Shown: in pieces, positions 1,081 to 24,825 of the stretch
Position numbering within the stretch: position 1 is the stretch's first letter
Layout of the letters: every line of letters starts with the position of its first letter
Source: a virus
Direction: 5' to 3' (one strand)
IMG/VR virus record: IMGVR_UViG_3300019756_000006
Span: 1-33,044 of that record
Length of the DNA: 33,044 nucleotides
Notes under the pieces: generated by a model
The model's database searches: none
What the model was told of the DNA's origin: nothing
The model's input: the letters and a program-made list of their open reading frames with translations, nothing else
Position numbers and translations under genes: made by a program

Positions 1081-2810
1081 TTTTTATAATTTGGATGATG
1101 TCCTCTATTTGCCATATCTCTTGGTGCAATTTCTACTTCTGCAGGGTTTTTAGGCTCTTTTAAGCCATCTTTTATTGCTTCTGCTTCACTAACAAGGTTC
1201 TTATCAGTAACTTTCTTTCTATATACCTTTAATTCCCAGTAATGATGACAATTTACACCGCCTTTATACTTAAATAATGAATAGTTTTGTCCTTTATGAC
1301 CTAATTCTTTATTTACACCTCTAAAAGACATCATATTTATATCTTCTTTTCTAAATACAAGATTTTGACTTGTTAATAGCTCCATTTTTTGACAAAAACG
1401 TCTGCTATCTGCTGAATTTCTTACAGGACCATAAGAATATCTAACCTTATATGTTGAATTATCTTGTGATGACTCCTTATTAGGTTTAGCATCATCTTTT
1501 GATACTTCTGCAAGTTTAGTAAAGTCAAATTCTGCTTCTGTGTCTTCTACTTTTTCTGTATGTATAAGTTCCCAGTTGTCTTCATCTACTTTTTCACCTA
1601 ATTCTTCTAATTGAGACAATAAATCATCTCCTTCTTCGTCATCAAAATCATTTTTCTCTTGTGATGATAACTTTTCACCTGTTTCTTCTTCTCTTTTAAT
1701 CTTTGTTTCAATATTATCAAGTTCTGTAAACTCAATTGGTTGTAAAGTAACAAAGTAAAGATTAAGATTTATACCATTAAAGCCTAATAACTCATTAAAG
1801 GAGTTGATTAGTAGGGTTTGAAATGGTCTAATAACAATATTATCCATTAAAACAGATGCAGTTCTTAATTCTTCTGCATTATTTCCAAATCCAGTGTTAT
1901 CTTTTATACCAAGTAGTATAGGAGAAACTACACCGTGACCAATCATTATCTTTTCTCTTGATTCTTTTGCTAAAAACTCATATTGAGCATGAGCATCTGG
2001 TAAATGTATTGGCTCTACTGTAGATTGTGCTTCACTATCTTCATTAAAACATAGAATAAATTTACCCGCATTAGAAGAACCACTAAACTTCTCATATATT
2101 TTAGACTCTATAAGCTGTTGAGATTCATCTGATGGAATACCATTGTTAAAGTTTAACAGTAATGATGGTTGTAATCCATTTTGTATGTTGTTTATATGGT
2201 AATTTGATACTTCTTCTTCAAGAGAACAATATTGTAAACATCCTTGATAATCTACTGGAGAATAATAATAAAAACCAGCTCTATATGGTTTAATATAATA
2301 TATTTCTACAGTTTCACTTTTTCTACCAAACTTAAATGCTGGTATTCTTTTAGGTTTATCTTGTGGTTTTAATTCTTTCCATTTAGGATGATAGTAAAAT
2401 GCTTCTATCTTTCCATTTACTGCTTTTTCTGCTCTTAATGTTTCAGTAGGAAAATGTTGTAGCTGCATAATTTTAGTTTTCTGTTTATTATATACAACTT
2501 GTATTGCAGCTTGTCCAAGTAATTTTAAATCACTTACAATTCTTCTTATATCTTTATCTTTAAGAATTTGTTGCATTTGACCAAACTGAATAGCATTGTC
2601 TTCTGAATCTGTTGCGTTTAATCCTCTACCGTAAATTAAATCAGTAATACCATTAACACATCTTGAGTTAGTTGGACTACCTAAATATCTTTCTATTAAT
2701 TCACCAAAATAGTTATTATCATCACCATATTCTATCCAATCGTGTCTTGGTGATTCTTTTATAGTTGGTACTTCGTACCCTGATAGATTTATTACTTTTA
2801 TTTTGTTCAT
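1077..2810 (-). CDS. Phage portal protein with C-terminal extension
   Basis: At 577 residues this is the portal, the twelve-subunit ring at the capsid vertex through which DNA is packaged and ejected. Residues from about 30 to 370 show the helical and clip features of flavobacterial phage portals (GELIERYLGSPTNSRCVNGI, IYGRGLN, LQHFPTETLRAEK, NNAEELRTASVLMDNIV). From about 385 to 450 there is a very acidic stretch (DFDDEEGDDLLSQLEELGEK). After this comes an extra domain with DSRRFCQKM, MSFRGVN and GGVNCHHYWE, of the kind found at the end of minor head or portal proteins of such phages. It is unusual that this gene lies downstream of the capsid gene. It overlaps both neighbours by ATGA. Confidence 0.8.
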   Translation of the reverse strand: MNKIKVINLSGYEVPTIKESPRHDWIEYGDDNNYFGELIERYLGSPTNSRCVNGITDLIYGRGLNATDSEDNAIQFGQMQQILKDKDIRRIVSDLKLLGQAAIQVVYNKQKTKIMQLQHFPTETLRAEKAVNGKIEAFYYHPKWKELKPQDKPKRIPAFKFGRKSETVEIYYIKPYRAGFYYYSPVDYQGCLQYCSLEEEVSNYHINNIQNGLQPSLLLNFNNGIPSDESQQLIESKIYEKFSGSSNAGKFILCFNEDSEAQSTVEPIHLPDAHAQYEFLAKESREKIMIGHGVVSPILLGIKDNTGFGNNAEELRTASVLMDNIVIRPFQTLLINSFNELLGFNGINLNLYFVTLQPIEFTELDNIETKIKREEETGEKLSSQEKNDFDDEEGDDLLSQLEELGEKVDEDNWELIHTEKVEDTEAEFDFTKLAEVSKDDAKPNKESSQDNSTYKVRYSYGPVRNSADSRRFCQKMELLTSQNLVFRKEDINMMSFRGVNKELGHKGQNYSLFKYKGGVNCHHYWELKVYRKKVTDKNLVSEAEAIKDGLKEPKNPAEVEIAPRDMANRGHHPNYKK

Positions 2811-3204: not shown

Positions 3205-3229
3205 AAAAAAAAAGAGGCAAATTGCCTCC
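3205..3229 (-). terminator. Intrinsic terminator after the tube-like gene
   Basis: On the minus strand GAGGCA and TGCCTC form a six-base stem with a three-base loop, followed by nine T residues. It lies 25 bases beyond the stop of the gene at 3254-3844 and ahead of the gene starting at 3172. Confidence 0.85.
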
Positions 3230-3253
3230 TTTTCTTTTAAGAACACTCTATAT

Positions 3254-3844
3254 TTAATCGTTAGTACCTTCAGTAATTGTAATAGTACCAGTTAAACTTG
3301 GGAAATCTGTAACATTAAATACAGCACCACCACTATTTTTCATAAATACAGCTGGTTTTTTCTCCATTGCAGTAAGAGTTAAAGTATAACCACTTAAATC
3401 TCCCATAGCAGCACCAGTTACAACTGTACCTCCTGATACATCTGCACCGTGTTCAAGACCTACCATCATATAGTTACCGTTATAATCTTCAACAACAACG
3501 TGAGGTCTTCCATAAGCCATTAATTTTAATTCTTTATTATCTAATTTAGATAACTTTTTAAGAGTTAAGTTAAGTGTTTGCTCATAGAAAGTAGTTCCGT
3601 TTTCTCTTGAAGAGTTAACAGTTTGTTCTAATGATGAATTTCCTTTTACTTCGTATTTATAACAAGTTAAGTTACCAGCTACATCACCAGTGTATCCACT
3701 GATATCTGTAATTTCTTCCCCAGTAGCGTCATCTGTTATATCTACAGTACCTAAATCTCCGTAGTTGACAAAATAAAGATTTTTTATTCCACCAACGACA
3801 TCTTTACAAGGTTCTTTTCTTCCTTTTGCGATATCACAAGCCAT
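3254..3844 (-). CDS. Major tail tube-like structural protein
   Basis: This 196-residue beta-rich protein starts MACDIAKGRKEPCKDVVGGI and contains a repeated-strand core (TFYEQTLNLTLKKLSK, VVVEDYNGNYMMVGLEHGAD, GYTLTLTAMEK) ending in TGTITI. It resembles tail tube-like proteins of Bacteroidota siphophages, in which the virion protein has an N-terminal Cys-rich strip and Ig-like strands. It sits between two intrinsic terminators as a single gene unit immediately behind the major capsid gene, which suits a highly expressed virion protein. It could alternatively be a capsid decoration protein. The assignment rests on pattern and context. Confidence 0.5.
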   Translation of the reverse strand: MACDIAKGRKEPCKDVVGGIKNLYFVNYGDLGTVDITDDATGEEITDISGYTGDVAGNLTCYKYEVKGNSSLEQTVNSSRENGTTFYEQTLNLTLKKLSKLDNKELKLMAYGRPHVVVEDYNGNYMMVGLEHGADVSGGTVVTGAAMGDLSGYTLTLTAMEKKPAVFMKNSGGAVFNVTDFPSLTGTITITEGTND

Positions 3845-4879: not shown

Positions 4880-5383
4880 TTAGTTATTAGTTATTGCGTT
4901 TAATACTCTATTGTAAGTAGTGTTTCTATTTGCATTAGGAGCGAACCTAACACCAATATTATTACTTACTTCGTTTTCTGGTGAATGAGAGATTGCTTCA
5001 GCAGGTTCATCAGCAGATAATTCTTGTGGAACTTCAGCTTTTGCTTCTTCTTTAGCTTCAATCATACCTTTTAATTTTTCTACCATTGATTTAAGTTCAG
5101 CGACCTCATCTTTAGTAGCATATTCTACAGATTCTGTTTCTTCTGGCATATGCTCATCATAAACATCTTCTTGTAGTTCTTCAGCACCTTCTTCTGCAGA
5201 ATATGTAATTTTTTCTACATTAGAAGCAGGAGCTTCCTCTTTAATCTCCTCTTTAGCTTCTTCTTTTTTAATTTTAGCTTTAGGAGCTTCTTCTTTTAAC
5301 TCAACTTCAGGAGTAGTTTCCTCTTCTTTAGTTGAAGACAAAAGAACATCTTTGATTTTTGTTACAATTTCACTTGCTTTCAT
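4880..5383 (-). CDS. Scaffold-like acidic coiled-coil protein
   Basis: This is a 167-residue, extremely Glu/Lys-rich protein with a low-complexity N-terminal half (repeats of KEEAPKAKIKKEEAKEEIKE type), then a coiled coil around residues 90-115 (KDEVAELKSMVEKLKGMIEA). It ends in a conserved-looking FAPNANRNTTYNRVLNAITN. Charged coiled-coil proteins placed just before the capsid gene are usually scaffolding proteins that guide shell assembly and are then lost or cut by the protease. The C-terminal 20 residues would be the capsid-binding part, by analogy. The 3' end of the gene contains the oriented sequence TGCGTTTAA seen elsewhere in the window. Confidence 0.6.
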   Translation of the reverse strand: MKASEIVTKIKDVLLSSTKEEETTPEVELKEEAPKAKIKKEEAKEEIKEEAPASNVEKITYSAEEGAEELQEDVYDEHMPEETESVEYATKDEVAELKSMVEKLKGMIEAKEEAKAEVPQELSADEPAEAISHSPENEVSNNIGVRFAPNANRNTTYNRVLNAITNN

Positions 5384-5432: not shown

Positions 5433-5888
5433 TTATGCTTTAGCCTGGATTATATACCAGTTTATTCCATCACTCCAAACAGTGATACCTTCAAATGCTT
5501 TATTAATTTCATAATAAGCAGATGAACCATCTAATGTTTGTCCTGCTCTTGGTGATAAGTGTGCTCTTGTACTTACATCAAATCCTCCATTAGAAATAAA
5601 TCTCATTATTCTGTAAGTGTTGTTTGCAGTTGTTGCATCAGGTAAAGTAAGAGTCATACTCCCTGCACCTCCAGACCAAGATAATTTTATCATTTCAGAA
5701 TCTTCATAAGTAGAACTATTTAAATCAACAGTTTGACCACTTGAAACAGTTAAACTTGTTGGAACTATATAGTTTACTATATCTTTTATTTCTGCATATT
5801 TTGTTTCACTGCTCTGTACTACTGCTATTTTTTCATCTCCTTGAAGAGCTGTAGCTGCGTTTAATTCTGATATTTTTTTATCTGCCAT
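5433..5888 (-). CDS. Virion decoration/head-fibre-like protein
   Basis: This 151-residue protein starts MADKKISELNAATALQGDEK IAVVQSSETKYAEIKDI. The opening KKISEL-AAT---GDE---VQS--TK is a common N-terminal anchor in phage head fibre and decoration proteins. The remainder is a Thr/Ser-rich beta domain (LTVSSGQTVDLNSSTYEDSE, MTLTLPDATTANNTYRIMRF, AFEGITVWSDGINWYIIQAK) of the sort found in trimeric surface proteins. It overlaps the upstream small gene by TAATG and lies among head genes. A role on the capsid surface is inferred. Confidence 0.55.
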   Translation of the reverse strand: MADKKISELNAATALQGDEKIAVVQSSETKYAEIKDIVNYIVPTSLTVSSGQTVDLNSSTYEDSEMIKLSWSGGAGSMTLTLPDATTANNTYRIMRFISNGGFDVSTRAHLSPRAGQTLDGSSAYYEINKAFEGITVWSDGINWYIIQAKA

Positions 5889-6106: not shown

Positions 6107-7269
6107 TTTATTGGAACACAATTAGGTACTTTTCTACCGTCTTTATCTTTCATACCTATCTGCTCATATCCATCCTGGCAAGGAGCTTTAAGATTGTGTT
6201 CCTCACAGGGCATATACCAAGTGTCACCTTCGTACTCGTGTGTATGATACCCTGAACAGCCAATATCTTCAGCAGCTCTTTCTGCTTCTTCTTGAGTTGT
6301 GTAAGCAGCTCTACCATCAATAATAGTTGATGCTGCTTCTATTGCATCAAGTCCTTTAAGTTTAGATGTAACCCAAGTTAACATTGATTTACCACCCCAT
6401 AATAAATATGAGATAGTTCCACAAGCCTCATTATTTCCTTCTTGATAATAAGCAGAAGCTCTTGATAAATATGAATATATGCGTTTAAGAGTAGGTAAAG
6501 TAAATTTTTCTCCTTTTTCAAGTTGTCTTGCTCTAACTTTACCAACTTGAGTTGCACATTTATTATTTACAGCTTCGTTATATTTAATTCCTCTTTTAGC
6601 ATTGTTTCTTGCAGATTGTGGATATCCTCCATAAGATTCAAGTTCTACTTCTTCAGATAAACTTGCTAATACTTCTGCTAATTCAAACTCTGCATTAAGT
6701 TCACTTAAACATTCACTACAAGCATTTTCTTCTATACTTTCTTTAGGTCTTTCCATATTATCAGCAAAATAACCTTCTATAGAAAATCCTTTTACTTCTC
6801 CTTCTTTTACTGCTCTCCATACATCATCATTTAATACTTTCATTGATACCATCCAAGTTCCTTTTGGTAGGTCAAATCCATAAGCAGCAGCTTTGTCTTT
6901 TTTAGGGTCTTCAATAAGCCAAGATTCTACTACAGACATATCTGATAATTCAAATGAATGTTCAAACGTAGAATTTCTATGTTTACTTTTAATAAAGAAT
7001 AATTCTGATGCTTTTCTTACTGTATCTTCAGAAAAGTATATGTAGTAATCTTCATCATCTTCTCCTTTTCTAAATATCTTCTTATTAGGAATAAGAGCAG
7101 GACCCATTAATATTCTTTTCTCTGCATCTACTTCAGCAAGTTTGATATCTTTATGTTCTTTTAGTGCTATAAAGTCTTCTTCTATAGCTGGATTTTCAAC
7201 GACAGAAATAGCTTCAATACCACTAATTTCATTTTCTTCGTCTATAATAAGTTCTATTATTTTTTCCAT
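6103..7269 (-). CDS. XkdF-like prohead serine protease with fused C-terminal modules
   Basis: This 388-residue protein combines several parts. Residues 1-175 match XkdF-type putative phage serine proteases: EAISVVENPAIEEDFIAL near the start, a candidate catalytic His104 in STFEHSFE and Ser163 in GFSIEGYF. Residues 213-300 hold a second module, YPQSARNNAKRGIKYNEAVN, with WGGKSMLTWV at its end, a combination often attached to phage proteases or portals. Residues 322-358 hold a Cys/His module (IGCSGYHTHE, WYMPCEEH), and the end is GYEQIGMKDKDGRKVPNCVP. The protease would mature capsid proteins during assembly. The extra modules have no known function that I can state. Lying directly ahead of decoration, scaffold and capsid genes supports the call. 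Confidence 0.75.
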   Translation of the reverse strand: MEKIIELIIDEENEISGIEAISVVENPAIEEDFIALKEHKDIKLAEVDAEKRILMGPALIPNKKIFRKGEDDEDYYIYFSEDTVRKASELFFIKSKHRNSTFEHSFELSDMSVVESWLIEDPKKDKAAAYGFDLPKGTWMVSMKVLNDDVWRAVKEGEVKGFSIEGYFADNMERPKESIEENACSECLSELNAEFELAEVLASLSEEVELESYGGYPQSARNNAKRGIKYNEAVNNKCATQVGKVRARQLEKGEKFTLPTLKRIYSYLSRASAYYQEGNNEACGTISYLLWGGKSMLTWVTSKLKGLDAIEAASTIIDGRAAYTTQEEAERAAEDIGCSGYHTHEYEGDTWYMPCEEHNLKAPCQDGYEQIGMKDKDGRKVPNCVPIK

Positions 7270-9332: not shown

Positions 9333-9468
9333 ATCTATTGCGTTTAATACTTTCTTTCATTTCTTTCCATGTAGTAGGAGATTTGTACCTTCCCTTTGCT
9401 ACATCTATATAATAACTAACTCCATAAAAGTTATCTGTCTTTAATGCTTCTATTATTAATTTTATCAT
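9310..9468 (-). CDS. Small basic tail-module protein
   Basis: The 52-codon frame starts at an ATG sharing a base with the upstream TAA stop (TAATG) and ends 23 bases inside the tape measure gene. The product (MIKLIIEALKTDNFYGVSYY, IDVAKGRYKSPTTWKEMKES, IKRNRYGYAAKK) is basic and contains no cysteine. The tight overlaps at both ends match this operon's habit, which is the main support. Its position directly before the tape measure is where the tail assembly chaperone often lies, but the chaperone pair is found instead at 18018-18805. I recognise no family. The segment 9336-9351 is identical over 16 bases to 4892-4907. Confidence 0.55.
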   Translation of the reverse strand: MIKLIIEALKTDNFYGVSYYIDVAKGRYKSPTTWKEMKESIKRNRYGYAAKK

Positions 9469-13908: not shown

Positions 13909-16900
13909 TTAACAAACAGTTAGTTGAGTTATTTCTCCTGGATTATTTTCACCTATTCTAAATGAATAACCTGTATTTGACCTAACATAATTTGTACTTG
14001 TGGGTGTATATAGATTAGTTAATGTATCATTTGTATATAAGTAAGTTCCATTTGAAAGTGTTCCAGAATAAGCAAGTTTTACATCAAATACTGATATGTT
14101 AGAACAAGCTGCAACAGCTGTTGTTTCTGTAGAACTCGATACTTGAAATTTATTAATTGTTGGAGTAGGAGTAGGTGTTGGAGTCGGTGTAGGACTAACA
14201 GCTTCTTCACACTGGTCACAATTTGTATATTGAATTAAGTTTGCTACATTCACATTTGAGTCAAGTCCTGCACTACCTAAATCTTGCATACATAATCCAT
14301 TATCATTAATTACTGCTGGCCAATTGCTACCTAAATCTGTTATACTTCCATAATCTTTTACAATATCAAGACCTCCAGTAGCACAATCACCATATTGTCT
14401 ATAATAAGATATTGATGGAGTTGGTGTTGGAGTTATAGTAGCTAAACAAGCAGCACATCCAAAATATGTATCTGTAAAAGTAGATATGTCTGGTGCGTCA
14501 GTAACTTCTACATCATCTAAATATTCTTTACATACATTATTTACTGTTTTTATTACAAGAGATGTAGATATTTCTCCAGTTGAACGAACAGCAGTTATAT
14601 TACCTCCATCTTCATTACAATCAATAAATCTTGCATAATAATATACAATTGGTGTGGGGGTTGGTGTAGGGGTTGGGGTTATTCCTTGACATTCTTCACA
14701 ATTTGTATATGGTTGCTGTCTTTCTAAATCAGTCAACTCTATATTAAAATATCCTGAAGGTAAAGTATATGTATCTTCAAATGTTTGTATAATTTCATAA
14801 CAACCTCTTCCACCTGTTTGACCCACGTCTTTTATATCTAAAATATAAGTTGATGTTTCTCCTGGTTGATTATATTCAAATCCATCAAATCTAAAATATT
14901 CATAATTTCCAGTATCACATCTTCTTGCAAGTAATCTTTGTTCTGTAGGAGTCGGAGGAGGTGTTGGTGGTTCTCCAGCACATCCAAAATTAACACAACC
15001 ACCTACAGTTCCATTTATCTGTACATATCTAAAATTAGTTCCATCAGAATATGTTCTTCCACCTGTAGCTAATGTAGTTCCTGCTGCATCACTATAAAAT
15101 TTAGTTGCAGTACAAAAAGCTGTTGTTCCATTTCTATCTGGATATAATGTTGTAGAATCACTTGAAGTACAAGCATTAATATCTGCAGAACCAGAAGTTG
15201 TGTATGTAACAGAATAAGAATAACTTGCCCTTGAATCCCATTGTATTAAATAATCGGTATCTGCTGAATAAGTTCCATTTACAACTACATTATAATAAAT
15301 ATTTCCAGTTGTTGTCTGGTCACTAAAAGTATATGTTTGAGAAGTGGCTCCTGATATATTAGATAAACTTCCTGGTGAAGTTCCTTTTTGCCATTGATAA
15401 CTTATTGTTCCTGATAAATTAGACACACTTGCGTTTAATGAAACTTGTTGAGATGTAAAGGCTTGTACAATTCCACTACCATCTGAACTACTTGCTGTTA
15501 TAATAACTTCAGGAGTTAATGCTACTTCACAAGTTTCTACTGGTGATTCTCCTATTGCAAAACCACATTGGTCAATAGTATCTACTTTTCCTGCTGGAGA
15601 TGACAATACTCTTGCATAATAAGAAATTAAATTACCATCACAGTTTGGTATTAATAATTTAAAATAATTTCCTGTTCCTCCAAAAGGAGAAGATAGTGAT
15701 TCATTATTAAATAACTGAACTCCTGTTTGTATTTGACCTGAATAATATACTGTTTTATCTGCTACTAAATCACAAGCAGTATCACCTGAAGGTCCAGGAT
15801 TTGCTGTATCTAAAGATGATATAACTATTGAATTTGTTCCGCTTGATTGAAAAATATCTTCTTTTGTTACTGGAGTTGGACATTGATTATAGTTTGTTAA
15901 CTCACCAGGATTATTAACTCCTATTCTACCATAATAACTTCCGGTAGTTCCTATTTTATAATAATTACCAGATGATGTATATGGTTGCGTAAGTTGCATA
16001 TCTTTATATAAAATCACACCACTACCAAAAGTTTGTCCAGATGCAAGTCCATAATGAGCATCTTCAGTTGCTGTTTGACTACAAGCATTTGTTGCATTAG
16101 AATATCCTAACTGGCTAACTAAAATTGTTTGAGCCTGATTTTGATTACTATCACTTATAACTACAGATATACTAACTTCTGGTGATATATTATTAAGTTT
16201 TAATGTAAATGTTTCATCTCCTTCAGAAGAAAAATCATCAACAGGTTCAAATGTAGCTTGAGCTGTGTTATTATTTACAACAAAAGCTCCTACTAAAGAA
16301 CCTCTCTCTAAATCTGATGCTGATACACCACTTATTGTAAAAGGAACAGAAACTCCATTTTCTACATTTTCTGTGTTTAATGTTATAGTAAAAGTATTTC
16401 CTTCAAAAACATTAGTTGCAGTTGATGATAAATAGTATTGTGGCTGTAAATCTTCACCAAGAGATACCTCTCCAGATAAAGTAGCTGTTTCAGTTACATT
16501 TGCACCAGAGAAAGTTCCTGTAATCGGTGATGAAACGCTTAATGTTAAAGGAGTATCTACATCATATCCTGTATTACCAGCTACAGATACACTAAATGAA
16601 TAGCTTGTTGTATCTTCTCCAGTTATTCTTGCTTCTAAAAATCCTGTAGTAGGATTATATTGTAATGTAGGACTTGAAGTTATTGTATAACCTGCAGGCG
16701 GTCCTATAATATTGTTTGTTACTTGAAGTAGTGCTGTATATTGAACATTTGTTGACCAGTTAACATCTATTGTTGCTGGATATTCATTTCCTGCTGAATC
16801 AAAAGCTGTTACTCCATATTGTATTGTAGAATTTACAGTTCCAGTTTCCGTAAAGTCAATTTGTTTTAATGTACTTCCAGCAGCAGTTCCTCCTGTCCAT

Positions 16901-18805: not shown

Positions 18806-18882
18806 ATTATAATAACTTTATATTTATATTATGTACTAAAATACGAAAATAAAACAAAATCAAAAAAGTTAGTTATATTATC

Positions 18883-19051
18883 GAAGAGTTTCTGAAGACA
18901 TAATTTTTCTTCGAAGATTATCATTTGAGACTCTTCTCAAAAGAAATAAGGTTAGGTTTAGGATAACTATGTTTCATAGAAACCTTTCATTTAATCTGAA
19001 TTTTTCATATAAGTGTTTTGAAGCTCTGAATCTCTTTCAGGGCTTTTTTTT
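18883..19051 (+). ncRNA. Candidate structured small RNA, antisense to the late-operon leader
   Basis: Three nested or adjacent structures are visible. (1) GAAGAGTTTC at 18883-18892 pairs with GAGACTCTTC at 18927-18936, with one G-U pair, around an inner hairpin at 18900-18921 (ATAA/TTAT and TCT/AGA). (2) GGTTT 18955-18959 pairs with AAACC 18980-18984, and CTATG 18967-18971 with CATAG 18975-18979, with a seven-base bulge. (3) The terminator hairpin is at 19022-19044, followed by eight T. The T-run is on the plus strand only, which gives the direction. The 5' end and promoter were not found: no TAnnTTTG lies within 60 bases upstream. It would be transcribed against the 5' leader of the tail/head operon. 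Confidence 0.45.
19022..19051 (+). terminator. Plus-strand intrinsic terminator
   Basis: On the plus strand AGCTCTGAA (19022-19030) pairs with TTCAGGGCT (19036-19044) through nine pairs including one T-G pair, with loop TCTCT, followed by eight T residues ending at 19051. The minus-strand version is not followed by a T-run. No protein gene on the plus strand would need it. Confidence 0.75.
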
Positions 19052-19102
19052 GATATCCCTTTGAATTTTCTTAAATGGAGAACTCACCCACCCAATTTTT
19101 AG

Positions 19103-19136
19103 TTTTACGTGACTTTCCTTTATTTTACGTCATTTT
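19103..19136. repeat. Two direct repeats of TTTTACGT, candidate operators
   Basis: TTTTACGTGACTTT (19103-19116) and TTTTACGTCATTTT (19123-19136) are 20 bases apart start to start, about two turns of the helix. They lie just downstream of the promoter-like box at 19147-19140 and may bind a regulator of late transcription. This is an inference. Confidence 0.45.
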
Positions 19137-19139
19137 ATC

Positions 19140-19147
19140 CAAATTTA
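19140..19147 (-). promoter_or_regulatory. Candidate late-operon promoter -7 box
   Basis: The minus strand reads TAAATTTG, an exact match to the Bacteroidota -7 consensus TAnnTTTG. A clear -33 TTTG is missing; TTTT occurs 17 bases upstream. It is the only exact match I saw between the accessory-operon terminator and the first late gene. Confidence 0.4.
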
Positions 19148-19272
19148 CTTATTGAGTTGAGTATAAAAGATATTTATAAACGTGTTGAATTTATAAGTAT
19201 TTTTTATATATAAATTTAAACTATATCTCATTAACAAATGATTAGCAAATTTTATAATTTTATTTTAAAGCG

Positions 19273-19289
19273 TTTTAAGGGCCTTAAAA
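19273..19289. repeat. Short inverted repeat TTTTAAGG-G-CCTTAAAA
   Basis: Eight bases are mirrored around a single G. It shares the GGGCC core with the terminator hairpin 30 bases away. It could be a protein binding site or a remnant of a second terminator. Confidence 0.4.
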
Positions 19290-19319
19290 TATTAATCTAT
19301 AATAATAGCTGCAGGGCAT

Positions 19320-19344
19320 AAAAAAAGGGCCTAAAAAGGCCCTA
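19320..19344 (-). terminator. Intrinsic terminator closing the accessory-gene operon
   Basis: On the minus strand AGGGCC and GGCCCT form a six-base stem with a six-base loop, followed by seven T. It lies 54 bases beyond the stop of the last accessory gene at 19398. Confidence 0.85.
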
Positions 19345-19397
19345 AATAAACAAATAACTAACATGAAAAAATGTTTATTTGTCTTATATAAATTAAA

Positions 19398-19547
19398 TTA
19401 TTTTTTGAACATATTTAATATTAAATTCATTTCCTTATCAGATAAATTATTGACTCTATCCCAATTTATAACGCTTGGTTTTTTACTGTTGAAAGCGTCA
19501 TTAATAAAATCTAAATCTTTGTTTTTATTTGTGTTTGTGTTTTTCAT
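19398..19547 (-). CDS. Small hydrophilic hypothetical protein
   Basis: This 49-residue frame begins MKNTNTNKNKDLDFINDAFN and ends in SKKPSVINWDRVNNLSDKEM followed by NLILNMFKK. It is the last gene before the terminator at 19320-19344. The N-terminus is Asn/Lys/Thr-rich and disordered-looking. The C-terminal part could form a short amphipathic helix. I do not recognise a family. The gap of 11 bases from the previous gene and the terminator position support it as a real gene. Confidence 0.55.
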   Translation of the reverse strand: MKNTNTNKNKDLDFINDAFNSKKPSVINWDRVNNLSDKEMNLILNMFKK

Positions 19548-19558
19548 TTGTGTTTGTT

Positions 19559-19690
19559 TTAAATTATTAATTTTCCTTTAATCTCTAAATTATCGTCATA
19601 GATAAAAATAGTTTCTCTATTTAGATAATTCTTTAAATTCTTTTTATTTACTTCTACTGTCTTATTGTTTTTAAATATATAATATTTCAT
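19559..19690 (-). CDS. Small hypothetical protein
   Basis: This is a 43-codon frame, MKYYIFKNNKTVEVNKKNLK followed by NYLNRETIFIYDDNLEIKGK and LII. It begins with an ATGA overlap with the stop of the gene at 19687-20001, a pattern that supports translation. The repeated beta-turn-like YYIFKNNKTVEV resembles the start of many small phage proteins but is not diagnostic. The function is unknown. Confidence 0.6.
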   Translation of the reverse strand: MKYYIFKNNKTVEVNKKNLKNYLNRETIFIYDDNLEIKGKLII

Positions 19691-20001
19691 AAGTTTATAA
19701 CTTTATTTTCTTTTAAGTCATATATAGCCAATTGGTCGTATAGTTTACCAATTTTTAAAGCGTCATCTTTACTGTCTAAATGTATATTTAAATCTAAATA
19801 GTAATCGTTATTTTCATCCATCCATCCGCCTAATGAGTCAAATTTGTTCAAATTCTTAACGTTAATTAATTCATTAGCTTTAGGGGTTTTTCCTTTATAT
19901 ATATTTTTAATTGATACAACAAATCGAGCGGTAGTATTTTTAAGTTTATAAGTGAAAGGAAGTTTATTTTTAATAAAATAAGGTATTGTATTTCGTTTCA
20001 T
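19687..20001 (-). CDS. Hypothetical accessory protein
   Basis: This 104-residue protein opens MKRNTIPYFIKNKLPFTYKL and includes ISIKNIYKGKTP-type sequence (VVSIKNIYKGKTPKANEL) and a WMDENNDYYLDLNIHLDSKD segment. Its character is mixed beta and alpha with an acidic C-terminus (AIYDLKENKVINL). It lies in a cluster of early-type small genes, 2 bases downstream of the next gene. No known family is recognised. Small phage proteins in such clusters often act on host functions, but nothing here shows that. Confidence 0.6.
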   Translation of the reverse strand: MKRNTIPYFIKNKLPFTYKLKNTTARFVVSIKNIYKGKTPKANELINVKNLNKFDSLGGWMDENNDYYLDLNIHLDSKDDALKIGKLYDQLAIYDLKENKVINL

Positions 20002-20003
20002 GA

Positions 20004-20276
20004 TTATAATATTATATAATGTAATGTAAAATAGCTAATAGCAAAAATTAAAATTATTGGCGTTAAATATTCTTCCATAAAAAAATAAAATTTGTCAATG
20101 TTTTTATCTTTTCTCAAAAAGTATTTAATTCTTTTTGGCGTGGTAGCGTGCGGGTAGTTAGTTGCATAATTAACCGCTTTTAATAATTCTTTTTTTTGTG
20201 TTTCGTTAGCCTCTTGATAAAGTTGCGTAACTTTAAAGCGTGCAAGAGTTAACTGTTTTATTGATATTCTTTTCAT
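20004..20276 (-). CDS. Small membrane-anchored hypothetical protein
   Basis: This is a 90-residue protein with a basic N-terminal part (MKRISIKQLTLARFKVTQLY, later PKRIKYFLRKDKNIDKFYFF) and a C-terminal hydrophobic helix (YLTPIILIFAISYFTLHYII), about 20 residues and probably membrane-spanning. The layout suggests a cytoplasmic head with a C-terminal tail anchor. It overlaps the 36-codon gene before it by ATGA. It is not recognised. It might alter the host envelope; that is a guess from topology. Confidence 0.6.
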   Translation of the reverse strand: MKRISIKQLTLARFKVTQLYQEANETQKKELLKAVNYATNYPHATTPKRIKYFLRKDKNIDKFYFFMEEYLTPIILIFAISYFTLHYIIL

Positions 20277-20383
20277 AATTGTTTTTTTATTTTCTCTAAT
20301 TTTAAATTAATCTTATTTAAAGAGGCTAATAATTTAGCCCCTTTATTCTTATATGTTTTATTTGGTTTCTTAATATCTTTCAT
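20273..20383 (-). CDS. Small basic helical hypothetical protein
   Basis: The 36-codon frame runs MKDIKKPNKTYKNKGAKLLA then SLNKINLKLEKIKKQL. The second half would form an amphipathic basic helix with Leu/Ile at regular spacing. The stop is TGA in an ATGA overlap with the next gene, and the start lies 2 bases after the previous stop, so it fills the gap exactly. No family is recognised. Confidence 0.55.
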   Translation of the reverse strand: MKDIKKPNKTYKNKGAKLLASLNKINLKLEKIKKQL

Positions 20384-20384
20384 A

Positions 20385-20672
20385 TTATGCATATATAGGG
20401 TTAATTCTTTTCATTAACTTTTCATTAGCTTTAATATTTTTCAATATTGTTTTTAAGTCATTTACTTTTGTAGCTAAATCAAATTGAGACTCAAGCAATT
20501 CTTTATTTGTTATTTGGTTATCTTCTACTTTATAAATAAAACCTTGATACCCTAATGCATCATAATAAATTTTATCTTCAAAAGAAGATATAATAAAATC
20601 GCTATCTAATTCTAAATATTGTCTTGTTAATTCTATATATTCTTTAATATATCTTATTACTGTTTCTTTCAT
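20385..20672 (-). CDS. Hypothetical helical protein, first gene behind a promoter
   Basis: This is a 95-residue, mostly helical, acidic protein. It starts MKETVIRYIKEYIELTRQYL and has DFIISSFEDKIYYDALGYQG then a helical C-terminus (LATKVNDLKTILKNIKANEK). It is the first gene downstream of a promoter-like sequence at 20736-20706, so it heads a short operon ending at 19398. The domain is not recognised. Confidence 0.6.
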   Translation of the reverse strand: MKETVIRYIKEYIELTRQYLELDSDFIISSFEDKIYYDALGYQGFIYKVEDNQITNKELLESQFDLATKVNDLKTILKNIKANEKLMKRINPIYA

Positions 20673-20705
20673 GTTATTTATTTTTAATGTTATGAGGTAA
20701 AATTA

Positions 20706-20736
20706 CAAATCTAATGTTAAGTTAATGTTAAGCCAA
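20706..20736 (-). promoter_or_regulatory. Bacteroidota-type promoter over TTAACATTA direct repeats
   Basis: On the minus strand TTGG (20736-20733), 19 bases, then TAGATTTG (20713-20706), matching the -33/-7 pattern TTTG-N19-TAnnTTTG with one -33 mismatch. The spacer is filled by two direct copies of TTAACATTA, 10 bases apart, a likely regulator site. The box lies about 30 bases before ATG 20672. Confidence 0.6.
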
Positions 20737-20899
20737 TATTATCAAATTGTTAAGTTTTTAATTAGCAAATTACCTATTAAATATTTTGTAATTTTGCAAA
20801 TTGGTAAAATTGTATAATTATGACCTATACAAATTTTTTGGCACAAATACAAATATTTTTACAATTTAGAATCATTCTAAATAAGGAAATTCAAAACCT

Positions 20900-20959
20900 A
20901 CTGCGTTTAGGTACTGCGTTTAAGAAACCCACTGCGTTTAATGACGTACTGCGTTTAAG
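20900..20959 (+). repeat. Array of four ACTGCGTTTA repeats (array 1)
   Basis: ACTGCGTTTA starts at 20900, 20913, 20931 and 20948; three of the four continue with AA. Spacings of 13, 18 and 17 bases vary, so this is not a strict tandem repeat. The units lie in different reading frames, so the DNA rather than a peptide is repeated. The last unit overlaps the 3' end of the gene at 20938-21075. Confidence 0.8.
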
Positions 20960-21075
20960 AATAGTTTTCTATTCTCTTGCGTTAATCTCTCAACTTCTTT
21001 TCTTAATTGTACAATCTCAATTGCTTGAGACTGCACAATTTCTTTTGTTGTTTCACTGCTAAAATTAAATTTCAT
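20938..21075 (-). CDS. Small coiled-coil protein ending in the repeat array
   Basis: The 45-residue frame begins at ATG 21075, 2 bases after the previous stop. Residues 11-38 (KEIVQSQAIEIVQLRKEVER followed by LTQENRKL) show a heptad pattern with I/V/L at a and d positions, a leucine-zipper-like coiled coil that would dimerise. It ends FLNAVRH, where LNAV is encoded by the first copy of the repeat. The protein could be a small regulator, but no DNA-binding basic region is evident before the zipper. Its gene may have been shortened by the repeat array. Confidence 0.55.
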   Translation of the reverse strand: MKFNFSSETTKEIVQSQAIEIVQLRKEVERLTQENRKLFLNAVRH

Positions 21076-21076
21076 A

Positions 21077-21322
21077 TTATTCATAATTTATATTTATTCC
21101 TTCGTAAATATCTATAAGTTTTTCAAGTTCAATCTCCTTATATTTATTTTCAAATTCAACTAAATCTCTTCCATTTAAGGGCGGTTCACAATCTAAATAA
21201 GTTCCTCCGCCATTTCCATCATTCCAAATAAGTAAACCTTTTATATTTGTTTTACATTCATATCCTAAACCTCTACGAGTCTCAAAATATCTTACGTTTG
21301 TAACTTTTAATTCTTTATTCAT
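21077..21322 (-). CDS. Hypothetical accessory protein
   Basis: This is an 81-residue protein, MNKELKVTNVRYFETRRGLG then YECKTNIKGLLIWNDGNGGG and TYLDCEPPLNGRDLVEFENK, with an acidic helical end. The first half resembles a small beta-barrel with Gly-rich turns; the two cysteines are unpaired in the pattern. It overlaps the zinc-ribbon gene upstream. It is not recognised as a named family. Confidence 0.6.
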   Translation of the reverse strand: MNKELKVTNVRYFETRRGLGYECKTNIKGLLIWNDGNGGGTYLDCEPPLNGRDLVEFENKYKEIELEKLIDIYEGININYE

Positions 21323-21437
21323 AATTTCTATTTATTACTTCGTTAGTATAATTATCCTCACAATTAGGGCAATTAAAACAATCTCTATCATTTACCCAAT
21401 AATAGCATCCGCAATTATAACATTCAAATTTTTCCAT
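21315..21437 (-). CDS. Small zinc-ribbon protein
   Basis: The 40-residue frame (MEKFECYNCGCYYWVNDRDC and FNCPNCEDNYTNEVINRNYE) has cysteines in C-x2-C-x-C and C-x2-C-x2-C arrangements, which would bind one zinc ion as a zinc ribbon. Such small proteins bind nucleic acids or act as partners of phage enzymes. It lies between two accessory genes, 5 bases from one and overlapping the other by 8, which supports it. The family resemblance is by cysteine pattern only. Confidence 0.65.
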   Translation of the reverse strand: MEKFECYNCGCYYWVNDRDCFNCPNCEDNYTNEVINRNYE

Positions 21438-21442
21438 AATTT

Positions 21443-21787
21443 CTATTTATTTATATCTTCTATTATCTCAATAATTTTATAATACATTTCACTTTTTACT
21501 ACGTCAATAATTGAATCATAATAATTAAGTGTCTCCTCTTCGGTTAAATACCTGTCTTTTAATTTATGATTAAACAAATTAAATTGTACTATACAGGCTA
21601 AAGCATCATTCATTGAAACAATAGTTTCATCAAGAAAATTAAATAAGTACGTGCTTGTTTTTCCTTTTGCTGAACCTAATTCAATCTCTTTTAATGTTTG
21701 ATACTCCTGATTAATTACTTTAACTGCTTTATCGAAATTAAACTTTCTAAAAGTTCCTCTTTCGTACTTCCAAAAATTACTTTTCAT
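21443..21787 (-). CDS. Hypothetical helical accessory protein
   Basis: This protein has 114 residues from ATG 21787; an upstream TTG is an alternative. It starts MKSNFWKYERGTFRKFNFDK. The rest is helical with a mid-protein segment YLFNFLDETIVSMNDALACI. The pattern TLKEIELGSAKGKTSTYLF is not familiar. It overlaps the 3' end of the gene at 21777-22046 by 11 bases. No motif or signal peptide is seen. Confidence 0.6.
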   Translation of the reverse strand: MKSNFWKYERGTFRKFNFDKAVKVINQEYQTLKEIELGSAKGKTSTYLFNFLDETIVSMNDALACIVQFNLFNHKLKDRYLTEEETLNYYDSIIDVVKSEMYYKIIEIIEDINK

Positions 21788-22046
21788 TATATTCAATTTC
21801 TATTTCATCAAGTAAATAATCATATCTCGCAACTTTTAAAAGTCTATTGTCTAAATAAAACCTGTATTCGTGTAGATTAGGTTTAATTTCTCGGTGTGTT
21901 GTTTTAGTGTCAAAGAACTTATAAGACCTTTTAACGCTGGTACCTATATAACAATTAAGTTCTCCGTGTTCCCTAATACCATAACTTTTATTTCCTGCAT
22001 ACGTACAAGAATTAATTTCGTTCCAAATTGGGTATTGTTTACTCAT
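21777..22046 (-). CDS. Hypothetical accessory protein
   Basis: This is an 89-residue protein (MSKQYPIWNEINSCTYAGNK, SYGIREHGELNCYIGTSVKR, HREIKPNLHEYRFYLDNRLL). The pattern of short strands with a basic centre resembles small phage proteins of unknown function found in early gene clusters of Bacteroidota phages, where WNEI-SC-Y---KSYG is common, to my recollection. It lies 5 bases after the gene at 22052-22237. The function is unknown. Confidence 0.6.
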   Translation of the reverse strand: MSKQYPIWNEINSCTYAGNKSYGIREHGELNCYIGTSVKRSYKFFDTKTTHREIKPNLHEYRFYLDNRLLKVARYDYLLDEIEIEYNEK

Positions 22047-22051
22047 CTTAT

Positions 22052-22237
22052 TTATTCTTTAATTATACCTTGTTCAATTAATTGTCTTGCTGTTCTACCG
22101 AACCAACCTTGTAAATTATAAGCTGTTCTTGTGTCGTGTAAATATTGCCACGCATCAATAACTTCGTTTTTTGTACCGCTAATAAACCCCTCACAAAGGC
22201 CAACTGCGGTATAACTATCTAAATTTTTATTTTTCAT
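22052..22237 (-). CDS. Small conserved phage protein (LQGWFGRTA motif)
   Basis: This is a 61-residue protein. The centre AWQYLHDTRTAYNLQGWFGR followed by TARQLIEQGII matches a short family found across many tailed phages (A--YL-DTG-A--LQG-FGR-A--LI--G). The family is typically carried by early genes and its role is unknown to me. It is the first gene of this cluster and lies downstream of the repeat region at 22290-22455. Confidence 0.65.
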   Translation of the reverse strand: MKNKNLDSYTAVGLCEGFISGTKNEVIDAWQYLHDTRTAYNLQGWFGRTARQLIEQGIIKE

Positions 22238-22287
22238 TTTTAAGTGTTTTAAAATTATGCAGCAAATATTTAAAAAAAAGTTATATC

Positions 22288-22323
22288 CAATGTTAACTTA
22301 ATGTTAAGAAATTATTATATTTG
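22288..22323. promoter_or_regulatory. Second copy of the TTAACATTA repeat region, with plus-strand TATATTTG
   Basis: On the minus strand CTTAACATTAAGTTAACATT (22309-22290) matches the promoter region at 20706-20736 base for base except one position. Its minus -7 box is degraded (TGGATATA). On the plus strand TATATTTG (22316-22323) matches the Bacteroidota -7 box. The region may be a shared operator; which strand is used is not clear. Confidence 0.5.
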
Positions 22324-22359
22324 TATTATGAAAATAAATAAGTTTAGCACAAAAAACCT

Positions 22360-22455
22360 ACTGAATTTAAGAAAAAGTATTTACAATCCCCTAAACTCAC
22401 TGCGTTTAAGAATTGCTGAACCTACTGCGTTTAATGATAAACCTACTGCGTTTAA
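22360..22455 (+). repeat. Array of one degenerate and three exact ACTGCGTTTA repeats (array 2)
   Basis: ACTGAATTTA starts at 22360, and ACTGCGTTTA at 22399, 22424 and 22445. The last ends four bases from the terminase stop. The units are preceded by CCTA or CTC and spaced 25 and 21 bases. A further exact copy lies inside the terminase gene at 22672. Confidence 0.8.
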
Positions 22456-22458
22456 TGA

Positions 22459-23667
22459 CTAACGTATCACATAAACGCCTTTATTTGCGTTGGCGAGGAA
22501 ATATTGTGCAGAGTATCGAAGTGCGTCTAACTGATGGTTCCATTTGTCAACAGGTCTTTCGTTCCTCTCATGCCAAACGTAATTATTCAGCTCTTTTATT
22601 AGCTCTGTACTATCAGCGTCAATTACTAAATCAAAGTCTTGAACAAGAGCAATCCCTGACAGAATAGACCCACTGCGTTTAACGGTTGGTTTTATATTAC
22701 AATACTCTTGAAGTTCTGATATAAGTCTTGGTTCTGCGTTATCACAGATAATTAAATCTTCTCCTGCATATCTTCTATTGAGTTCTCCTATTTCTTTTGT
22801 AGATAATCCTGGCTTTGCATACATTGTTTTAATCCACATAGTTTTTCTATCTCTATCTATTGCTACTTTTATAAGTGTTGTTGGGTCCACAGAAAAACCA
22901 AAGTCTTGACCGTATATAGAATCAGCATTATCATTAAACATCCCTATTGTCCAATTAGAAAATACAACTCCTTCTGCCTTATCGAGCCATCCTCCAAGTA
23001 TCTGGTGGTTGTATCTATCTGGCCTTCTGCGTCTTATATCTTCAAGTTGAAGTAAAAATGATTCTGATAGATTTTCTATATTATCTTTAAATGTAGTATG
23101 AATATAAGTTACATTATCTTTATATCCATTATGTCCTGCGTTTACTGCTTTACCTGCAAAGAATCTTTGATATATCCAATGTTCTTTAGTAGCTGGGTTT
23201 AATATCATAATAACTCTATTAGGTTTAGCTTTACTTCTTACTGATTGGTCTATCTTATCAAAGTCTTCTTCTTTTACAAGCTCTTCTGCTTCATCAAGTA
23301 CCCAAGTAGTAATCCCACTAATAGACTTTAAAGCTGCTGTTTGATTCCCTGCAGAAGTTCTAATTCCTTTAAACAATATTGAACTACCTGTAGATATATT
23401 TAATATTTCATCTTTAGTTATACGAAAATGTTCCATTATACCATACAATTCTAACTTTTCCAAAAACTCTGGAATAATCGAATTGGCGGCAGATATCATT
23501 GTATAACGAGTAAAAAGTATCTTGTGTCCCTGTTCGAACGTTAGAAAGGCTAAAAATGTGGTTATAGCGAATGATTTACCACTTCCTCTACCTCCTGTGA
23601 TTACAAAGTACCTGGTATCGTTACCAAGTGCATTATATTTCTTGTTCAGTATCGGTTTCTTCATCAT
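22459..23667 (-). CDS. Terminase large subunit
   Basis: This 402-residue protein is the packaging motor and nuclease. Walker A is at residues 25-32 (GGRGSGKS) and Walker B at about 122-126 (WVLDE, with D125-E126). The RNase H-like nuclease acids are D255 (YGQDFGF), D309 (IICDNAEP) and D381 (NHQLDALRY). The architecture and length match PBSX-type large terminases. Start codons at 23667 and 23664 are both possible. It overlaps the small terminase gene by 35 bases. Its last codons run into repeat array 2, and residues about 328-331 (PTVKRS) are encoded by another copy of that repeat. Confidence 0.93.
   Translation of the reverse strand: MMKKPILNKKYNALGNDTRYFVITGGRGSGKSFAITTFLAFLTFEQGHKILFTRYTMISAANSIIPEFLEKLELYGIMEHFRITKDEILNISTGSSILFKGIRTSAGNQTAALKSISGITTWVLDEAEELVKEEDFDKIDQSVRSKAKPNRVIMILNPATKEHWIYQRFFAGKAVNAGHNGYKDNVTYIHTTFKDNIENLSESFLLQLEDIRRRRPDRYNHQILGGWLDKAEGVVFSNWTIGMFNDNADSIYGQDFGFSVDPTTLIKVAIDRDRKTMWIKTMYAKPGLSTKEIGELNRRYAGEDLIICDNAEPRLISELQEYCNIKPTVKRSGSILSGIALVQDFDLVIDADSTELIKELNNYVWHERNERPVDKWNHQLDALRYSAQYFLANANKGVYVIR
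22672..22682 (+). repeat. Single ACTGCGTTTAA inside the terminase gene
   Basis: ACTGCGTTTAA occurs in the C-terminal part of the large terminase coding sequence, identical to the arrays about 220 bases away and in the same orientation. It may be a coincidence forced by codons (Thr-Val-Lys-Arg-Ser) or part of a packaging recognition site. Confidence 0.55.
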
Positions 23668-24040
23668 TAGATAATTCTATTACTTCATCATCTTCTTGAC
23701 TACCTGTAAACAGGTTTTTTATATTGATATTTACCTTCTGTTGTTTTTCTTCAGGTGTATCAAGTGGCTTGCCATATTTATATTCAAAGAGTAATTTAAG
23801 GTGAGGAAAAGAAGTTTTAGCCTGTTCTGCTAATGATTCCCATGCTTCTTCTTCGCTTCCAAATACTTTTGCCATTGCATTAAGAGCGTAGATTCCGACT
23901 CTGTTTCGCTTGGCATTGTTAATAGCAGCAGAAGATGTGGGTCGTACAACAGGCACGTTTCTAACGCCTGGTTTTCGTCCATTGTTTCTTCGTCCATCAT
24001 TGTCTTTGACATATTTGTATTGTTTAGGTTTTCTTCCCAT
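23633..24040 (-). CDS. Terminase small subunit
   Basis: This protein has 135 residues from ATG 24040 (MGRKPKQYKYVKDNDGRRNN GRKPGVRNV); upstream ATG or GTG starts would add 14 residues unlike the family. The basic, Gly/Arg-rich N-terminus resembles an AT-hook-like DNA-binding arm, followed by a helical AKVFGSEEEAWESLAEQAKT and a Lys-rich FEYKYGKPLDTPEEK segment, which is typical of small terminases. The acidic C-terminus would bind the large subunit. Position directly ahead of the large subunit supports the call. It would recognise the packaging site. Confidence 0.75.
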   Translation of the reverse strand: MGRKPKQYKYVKDNDGRRNNGRKPGVRNVPVVRPTSSAAINNAKRNRVGIYALNAMAKVFGSEEEAWESLAEQAKTSFPHLKLLFEYKYGKPLDTPEEKQQKVNINIKNLFTGSQEDDEVIELSNDEETDTEQEI

Positions 24041-24314
24041 ACTTATTATATATATAACTGATTGCAGACCAAACTGCATCACTTATCTCTTTTTTATCAT
24101 AAATTTTAGTTCCTAATTTTTTAATTCCGTCTTTTTCCACAGCGATTTTAAAATGTGTACAAACAGGAGAACAAGGACCATAAGGCTCCCTATAAATCCT
24201 ATAACCATTGTCAACGCACCAACGAGCATGGCTTTGGTTGTAAGAATTGTTATATTTACCAAGTCTCCAAGTTCTGTTATACTCATCAATTTGCTGTGGA
24301 GACCTCCTTCTCAT
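24024..24314 (-). CDS. Hypothetical basic protein before the terminase genes
   Basis: This protein has 96 residues from ATG 24314; a GTG two codons upstream is also possible. It starts MRRRSPQQIDEYNRTWRLGK and includes SHARWCVDNGYRIYREPYGP and a helical end WSAISYIYNKYG. It is basic and could bind nucleic acid, but no known fold is recognised. The tight overlap with both neighbours is consistent with a real gene. Confidence 0.6.
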   Translation of the reverse strand: MRRRSPQQIDEYNRTWRLGKYNNSYNQSHARWCVDNGYRIYREPYGPCSPVCTHFKIAVEKDGIKKLGTKIYDKKEISDAVWSAISYIYNKYGKKT

Positions 24315-24825
24315 AAACACCTAAATTATTTTTAATTCTATCATATTTATCTTTTATTCCAACAGGAACATATCCATAAGAATTTTTAGCTGTACTTAAA
24401 AAATGTTCAAACTCTATATTTACAAAAGTTCTTAAATCATTATACTTTTGTTTTAATTCAATGTGATGATTTAAAAGTGCATAGTACTTATCTTTATTCT
24501 GACCATCAGCTACATCATTAAAATAAAAGTCATTCTTTAATTCTATAAACATTTTTTTATACGGTTCTAAATAATCAGTTTCATTCCAAAGCTCAAGCAA
24601 TTCAAAAGTTTTTAAACCGTGTAGAACACAGGCGTGGTCTTTATAAACCAATACACCAATGTGTGTTAAAGTGTAATGAGTTAATTCTCTTGCTAACTTA
24701 TAATAAACAGCTCTTGCATAAACATAATCAACTGTTCTTTTTCTATTACTTATTGTTAATCCAAAAGCCTTATTGACTTTTTTCATAATTATATTTAATC
24801 TATTTCTTCTTTTACTATTATTCAT
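24286..24825 (-). CDS. DnaA domain IV-like DNA-binding protein
   Basis: This 179-residue protein has a stretch at residues 20-77 resembling the last domain of the replication initiator DnaA: SNRKRTVDYVYARAVYYKLA, RELTHYTLTHIGVLVYKDHA and CVLHGLKTFELL. D63-H64 and the following V-H match the GxDHTTVxH signature that reads DnaA boxes. There is no AAA+ ATPase, so this is a stand-alone DNA-binding domain with a helical extension. A start at ATG 24786 (residue 14) is possible. In phages such proteins bind origins or act as regulators. Two candidate targets in this window are the repeat arrays and AT-rich gaps. This is an inference. Confidence 0.7.
   Translation of the reverse strand: MNNSKRRNRLNIIMKKVNKAFGLTISNRKRTVDYVYARAVYYKLARELTHYTLTHIGVLVYKDHACVLHGLKTFELLELWNETDYLEPYKKMFIELKNDFYFNDVADGQNKDKYYALLNHHIELKQKYNDLRTFVNIEFEHFLSTAKNSYGYVPVGIKDKYDRIKNNLGVYEKEVSTAN

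Follow-up and report, generated by a model that had tools for sequence, protein, structure and literature searches.

The window analysed here, a stretch of 33,044 nt comprising positions 1 to 33,044 of the viral record IMGVR_UViG_3300019756_000006, carries a short oriented repeat, hereafter called the unit, in two arrays close to the gene for the large terminase subunit (terL) and as single copies elsewhere. The major genes of the window lie on the minus strand throughout, so the unit in the sense of transcription reads TTAAACGCAGT. Its features suggest a hitherto undescribed signal that ends transcripts and is probably read by a phage-encoded protein. The arrays and the genes that they adjoin are as follows.

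22360..22458, minus strand: array 2, directly 3' of terL, with units at 22445-22455, 22424-22434 and 22399-22409 and a degenerate unit at 22360-22370; sense TTAAACGCAGT
20900..20958, minus strand: array 1, at the 3' end of a 48-aa open reading frame (ORF), with units at 20948-20958, 20931-20941, 20913-20923 and 20900-20910
22672..22682, minus strand: unit inside terL, 221 nt ahead of its stop codon; synonymous positions kept in unit-bearing phages
22459..23667, minus strand: terL, terminase large subunit (Terminase_3), whose stop codon anchors array 2
20938..21084, minus strand: 48-aa ORF, whose TAA stop lies within the array-1 unit 20931-20941

The exact sequence ACTGCGTTTA occurs eight times (starts at 20900, 20913, 20931, 20948, 22399, 22424, 22445 and 22672) and the degenerate unit ACTGAATTTAA lies at 22360. 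An earlier note, made from the sequence alone, had described these nine units in two clusters and the terminase gene, and all were found where it had placed them. It had also counted 11 copies of the core TGCGTTTAA, on the plus strand only and with less than one expected by chance. The strand and the chance estimate held (mean 0.29, maximum 2, in 100 dinucleotide shuffles) but the total was 13, at 2613, 4895, 5856, 6480, 9339 and 15430 plus seven within 20915-22682. The strict orientation that it had proposed was upheld in the whole record, with ACTGCGTTTAA present seven times forward and never in reverse. The first base of the terL stop codon is followed at 6 nt by the start of the nearest unit (22445-22455). 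No Rfam family matched the window at gathering score.

A pattern of exact unit pairs identified at least 118 stretches with arrays in IMG/VR, a few of which were coding-repeat false positives, and a second pattern with TTAAACATAGT identified at least 120, of which 109 were new loci. Same-strand arrays of the unit or its ATG variant are thus present in more than 200 stretches. Such false positives (e.g. L023, L058, L103 and L111) were discarded after reading. Units on both strands were present in one of the 118 loci from the first pattern and again in one locus from the second, and long records held 3-18 sites each, almost all on a single strand. The consensus was CC[CT]ACTGCGTTTAA[GTC], which is TTAAACGCAGT[AG]GG on the coding strand; a coding-strand reading that also covers the ATG variant is TTAAAC[GA][CT]AGT[AG]GG. 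Spacing between units was mostly 17, 19, 21 and 23-25 nt. Profile searches detected a terminase in 89 of 118 GCA-type and 62 of 109 ATA-type loci, the remainder being mostly short fragments. Most of the GCA-type loci reaching the terminase gene had a product 56-100 % identical to that of the window, and within this clade (TerL at least 57 % identical to that of the window) the unit set beside terL was kept, as would be expected from the earlier note. No array was detected in a deposited phage collection (50,697 records), so the unit-bearing group seems to be uncultured; blastn of idealised arrays matched only at E 7 or not at all. These marine phages probably have hosts among the Flavobacteriia. 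No report of the motif was found in the literature searched.

Placement was surveyed in 21 long unit-bearing genomes, consisting of the window and 20 others. Each genome had two to four arrays, each at a different operon end, and array sites included the 3' side of terL, small island cassettes after terL, a conserved structural gene (182-aa homologues) and early genes. The orientation of units followed transcription. The first unit was most often at -1, with its own TAA serving as the stop codon, or at +6/7 from the upstream stop. This distance to the stop codon varied little whereas that from array to next promoter varied widely, and activator sites at a set distance from the next promoter were rejected on this basis. 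Leader peptides were also rejected, as units are read in more than one frame (LRL, TAF) and the ORFs oppose the gene direction. Within 400 nt downstream of arrays TTAACATT was found 34 times forward and six times in reverse, and TAnnTTTG 38 times forward and 15 times in reverse. The latter sequence is the -7 box of sigma-A in flavobacteria (PMC9723704). The region downstream of arrays is thus promoter-like in sequence and may serve the next transcription unit. The window has two sets of TTAACATT repeats in such positions.

22285..22318, minus strand: TTAACATT repeats that follow array 2, presumably as the promoter region of the next transcription unit
20709..20742, minus strand: TTAACATT repeats downstream of array 1

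Both sets have an 11-nt pitch and are probably part of the promoter of the next transcription unit. In one subgroup, represented by L014, the interval that separates terL from the array (about 100-160 nt) contains a promoter-like TATATTTG and a hairpin, an arrangement that suggests a small RNA gene ending at the array. A palindrome core, TTTAGAATCATTCTAAA, is located at 20865-20881 of the window, with CTTATTTAGAnnnATTCTAAATAAG in relatives; it has an operator-like appearance, and 17 of its 19 occurrences in unit-bearing phages were near a unit, typically on the 3' side at a distance of 20-60 nt.

This distribution bears on two of the functions that could be assigned to direct repeats of this kind. 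Replication-origin iterons, at which the protein with DnaA domain IV encoded at 24286-24825 would bind to start replication while further arrays control copy number, would account for a spacing of 17-25 nt and for the replication set that accompanies the arrays (DnaA domain IV with SSB in 19 of 21 genomes, an AAA ATPase in 20 of 21 and ERF in 20 of 21). However, the earlier note had considered a replication initiator site, and a single origin is disfavoured because each genome has several arrays, some of them at the ends of structural genes far from the replication genes. An iteron would explain neither units within or touching terminator hairpins nor single intragenic units in strictly sense orientation. 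This explanation is quite unlikely. The second function is recombination, with arrays acting as homology tracts for the shuffling of small-gene cassettes. Positions 18806-22458 form a hypervariable island of small genes between terL and the gene at 18086-18805. Arrays flank such hypervariable small genes, and ERF, exonuclease and RusA-like genes are present, but isolated intragenic units, units in terminator loops and the strict sense orientation are left unexplained; cassette exchange is extremely unlikely as the function and would probably be a side effect at most.

Relatives lacking the unit were represented by a sister clade, comprising the 80 loci whose terminases are closest to that of Nonlabens phage P12024S. 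Sister terminases are 61-71 % identical to that of P12024S, which is itself 52 % identical to that of the window. No arrays were detected in the 80 sister loci or in P12024S. In most sister loci the gene following terL, within about 35-50 nt, is by sequence a homologue of the gene at 18086-18805. As terL nearly abuts this homologue, the island and the arrays in it occur on one side of the split. A GC-rich hairpin takes the position of the arrays in some sister phages, and neither sister phages nor the phages L252-L262, which encode DnaA domain IV, had comparable repeat arrays of their own. Another proposal of the earlier note was a recognition set for packaging (pac/cos), which the small terminase subunit (TerS) would bind. 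The main array does abut terL and two further sites lie inside this gene, but the sister clade has related terminases (TerS was detected in 6 of 11 sister genomes) without units, and arrays are also found at the ends of structural and early genes. Where pac sites are known, they are in terS or close to it, not after terL. A packaging role is therefore very unlikely; packaging and a single origin both fit the distribution of units poorly.

A role as an element of the host, or as antisense to one of its conserved RNAs, was rejected on the basis of 13 matches against 9 for the control in 100 Flavobacteriaceae genomes. None of the loci with pattern matches in genome contigs had a window-type TerL, and most contexts looked at were unrelated repeats. 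One Flavobacteriaceae metagenome-assembled genome had two tandem units (L192, about 4.4 kb from the start; G074:C2:307542-307573) and no others; excisionase-like and integrase-like genes lie some hundreds of bases away from this pair.

The unit was associated with intrinsic terminators. Among 268 distinct intrinsic terminators of unit-bearing phages, 53 had a unit between -40 nt and the hairpin end, compared to one of 268 control windows 200 nt upstream (P=4e-16, Fisher; sets deduplicated by sequence, not descent). None of 34 sister-clade terminators had a unit. The commonest offset was -11, at which the unit touches the hairpin. In 11 terminators the unit was inside the hairpin, on different stems, and in several it was buried in the stem (offset -2). 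The terminator loop of G014 is TTAAACATA, and in G008 and G017 the terminator is built from the last unit and an inverted copy of it. Apart from these two genomes, a separate intrinsic terminator was found in 0 of 34 array gaps versus 18 of 100 other gaps. Neither array of the window has a hairpin with a T tract. Array-free intrinsic terminators of the window are located at 30361-30344 and 19343-19326, and one of its gene ends has degenerate units before a hairpin.

3205..3256, minus strand: end of the gene at 3254-3844, with degenerate units TTAAATATAG and TTCTTAAAAG followed by an intrinsic terminator

Relatives have intact units plus a hairpin at the matching position.

Units inside genes were assessed by synonymous-codon shuffling, with counts summed over the 21 genomes. 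TTAAACGCA occurred 58 times in sense orientation against 6.7 expected, although these are not independent events as the genomes are related, and once in antisense against 2.0 expected. Two sites in terL had their synonymous positions kept: AAA-CGC-AGT at 221-224 nt before the stop codon, and TTA-AAC-GCA at 867 nt before it, the latter missing from terL of the window. This indicates that single intragenic units are also under selection, and the suggestion of the earlier note that selection acts on the nucleic acid itself was supported by both the excess and the conservation. The isolated core units of the window are listed below.

2613..2621, minus strand: intragenic, in the portal gene
4895..4903, minus strand: 21 nt before the stop of the gene at 4880-5383, just before the gene at 3920-4864
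5856..5864, minus strand: intragenic
6480..6488, minus strand: intragenic
9339..9347, minus strand: 35 nt before the stop of a 52-aa gene
15430..15438, minus strand: intragenic

Two proteins encoded close to terL are candidates for reading the unit.

24286..24825, minus strand: DnaA-domain-IV protein, leading candidate reader
24024..24320, minus strand: 98-aa protein, alternative candidate reader, only in unit-bearing phages

The first of these had been called DnaA-like in the earlier note. It is certainly a DnaA domain IV, with a score of 38.2 bits to Bac_DnaA_C of Pfam (cut-off 31.5, E 1.5e-9), a fold similar to that of the DNA-bound DnaA DNA-binding domain of M. tuberculosis (Z 15.0, rmsd 1.8, 93 aligned) and to E. 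coli 1j1v (Z 14.3), and profile matches to DnaA chains as well; all 21 unit-bearing genomes encode it, so the idea of the earlier note that the repeats are a target of this protein may hold. The domain is joined to a helical tail and there is no AAA+ domain. It belongs to a gene block before TerS-TerL that was kept in 21 of 21 unit-bearing phages and is rare in sisters, where the exonuclease, the 82-aa protein and the 98-aa protein were each found in 0 of 11 genomes and DnaA domain IV in 2 of 11. The most distant unit-bearing phage, G023 (49.8 kb), kept DnaA domain IV, the 98-aa protein and the exonuclease, and TerS, the 82-aa protein, ERF, SSB and the AAA ATPase were not detected in it. DnaA domain IV was also present in 12 of 15 independently found records with ATA-type arrays. 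In P12024S, gp17 (L263 11277-11738, annotated as hypothetical) matches the phage DnaA-domain-IV profile at 7.7e-17.

The 98-aa protein is more tightly tied to units than DnaA domain IV, its family being confined to unit-bearing phages (21 of 21, versus 0 of 11 sister genomes and 0 of 80 sister loci). Its model has an alpha-beta3-alpha order. The fold could not be named, as matches to RNA-binding folds were too weak, and a dsRBD-like fold is kept only as a lead. These properties raise the possibility that the unit acts in nascent RNA and not through DNA binding. In that case UUAAAC[GA][CU]A at the 3' ends of mRNAs would be read by a nuclease or by a phage protein that binds RNA, perhaps the one of 98 aa, and the outcome would be stabilisation, processing or antitermination. 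The confinement and model of the 98-aa family, an orientation that always follows transcription and the display of units in terminator loops on different stems are consistent with such an element, but the stem-buried units and the weakness of the fold matches are not, and it is considered unlikely. Loop units and strict sense orientation suit either RNA or a polar DNA roadblock, while stem-buried units suit DNA.

The best-supported explanation is that the unit is a directional 3'-end or termination element specific to this phage clade, and on balance the repeat is probably a phage-specific punctuation mark for the 3' ends of transcription units. A phage-encoded protein would bind the units and RNA polymerase would stop there, either at arrays alone or where units aid a hairpin, and this would insulate modules with promoters of their own. 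The DnaA-domain-IV protein would be the likeliest reader, acting as a polar roadblock by analogy with E. coli DnaA at a DnaA box; alternatives would be its 98-aa neighbour or reading of the nascent RNA. That the unit terminates by itself, that a protein reads it, which protein does so and whether it reads DNA or RNA are all points that we infer.

Several observations weigh against this explanation. Mean folding z was -0.04 over 32 arrays, on which basis an array of RNA hairpins was rejected, and most arrays have no T tract, so termination at arrays would need a factor. Genes, terL included, would be odd places for terminators, and a pure terminator model does not explain the selection on intragenic units. 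DnaA domain IV also occurs without units, in P12024S gp17, in L252-L261 and in 13 of 24 sister records (E 0.05); its recognition helix varies and the unit does not. Agreement between TTAAACGCA and the DnaA box TTATCCACA is weak, at 6 of 9 positions, and does not amount to a DnaA-box match. Co-occurrence with units is confounded by shared descent.

A more specific proposal is possible but rather doubtful. The clade may have its own factor-dependent polar termination code. A word of 11-14 nt, set in rows at operon ends and in the loops of terminators, would be recognised by a phage protein (DnaA-derived or the 98-aa protein) and would take the place of intrinsic terminators or reinforce them, and isolated copies inside genes would adjust the level of read-through. 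This would be a bacterial-virus counterpart of TTF-I and its Sal boxes. If the unit is a terminator element, transcript ending that is coded in sequence and probably read by a protein has been kept across a large group of marine phages, as a route beyond the usual hairpin and Rho. The arrays would then offer a direct test of the role of phage-borne DnaA-domain-IV proteins, and rows of TTAAAC[GA][CT]AGT[AG]GG would provide a simple marker of operon ends in many unannotated viral contigs.

Among known systems, the DnaA-box roadblock terminator of E. coli asnC resembles the phage arrangement in that short asymmetric sites occur alongside an encoded DnaA domain IV. DnaA bound to a DnaA box within the transcribed region can block RNA polymerase at asnC, according to work cited in PMC11317965 (its references 27-29). 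The phage unit, however, is TTAAACGCAGT[AG]GG and not TTATCCACA, it is found in rows of two to six at many operon ends, and the phage protein, a candidate binder only, differs from E. coli DnaA in having no AAA+ domain. Intrinsic terminators share the operon-end positions, and some units lie in or against such hairpins, but arrays have no excess of hairpins or T tract and the unit is conserved in sequence, a conservation that hairpins do not need. The iteron origins of plasmids and phages are similar in having direct repeats near two DNA turns apart and an initiator-like gene in the genome, whereas the phage arrays are several, irregularly spaced, at gene ends and tied to terminators. Integron attC sites (GTTRRRY core, inverted arms, integrase) were rejected, as G precedes TTAAAC in only about a fifth of units, arrays have no inverted arms and no integrase was found among the window genes scanned. 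Eukaryotic rRNA genes have Sal-box/TTF-I terminator arrays, in which an oriented word that a protein reads is set in rows after the transcription unit. The polymerase and the protein are different there, and the likeness to the phage arrays is one of working, not of kinship.

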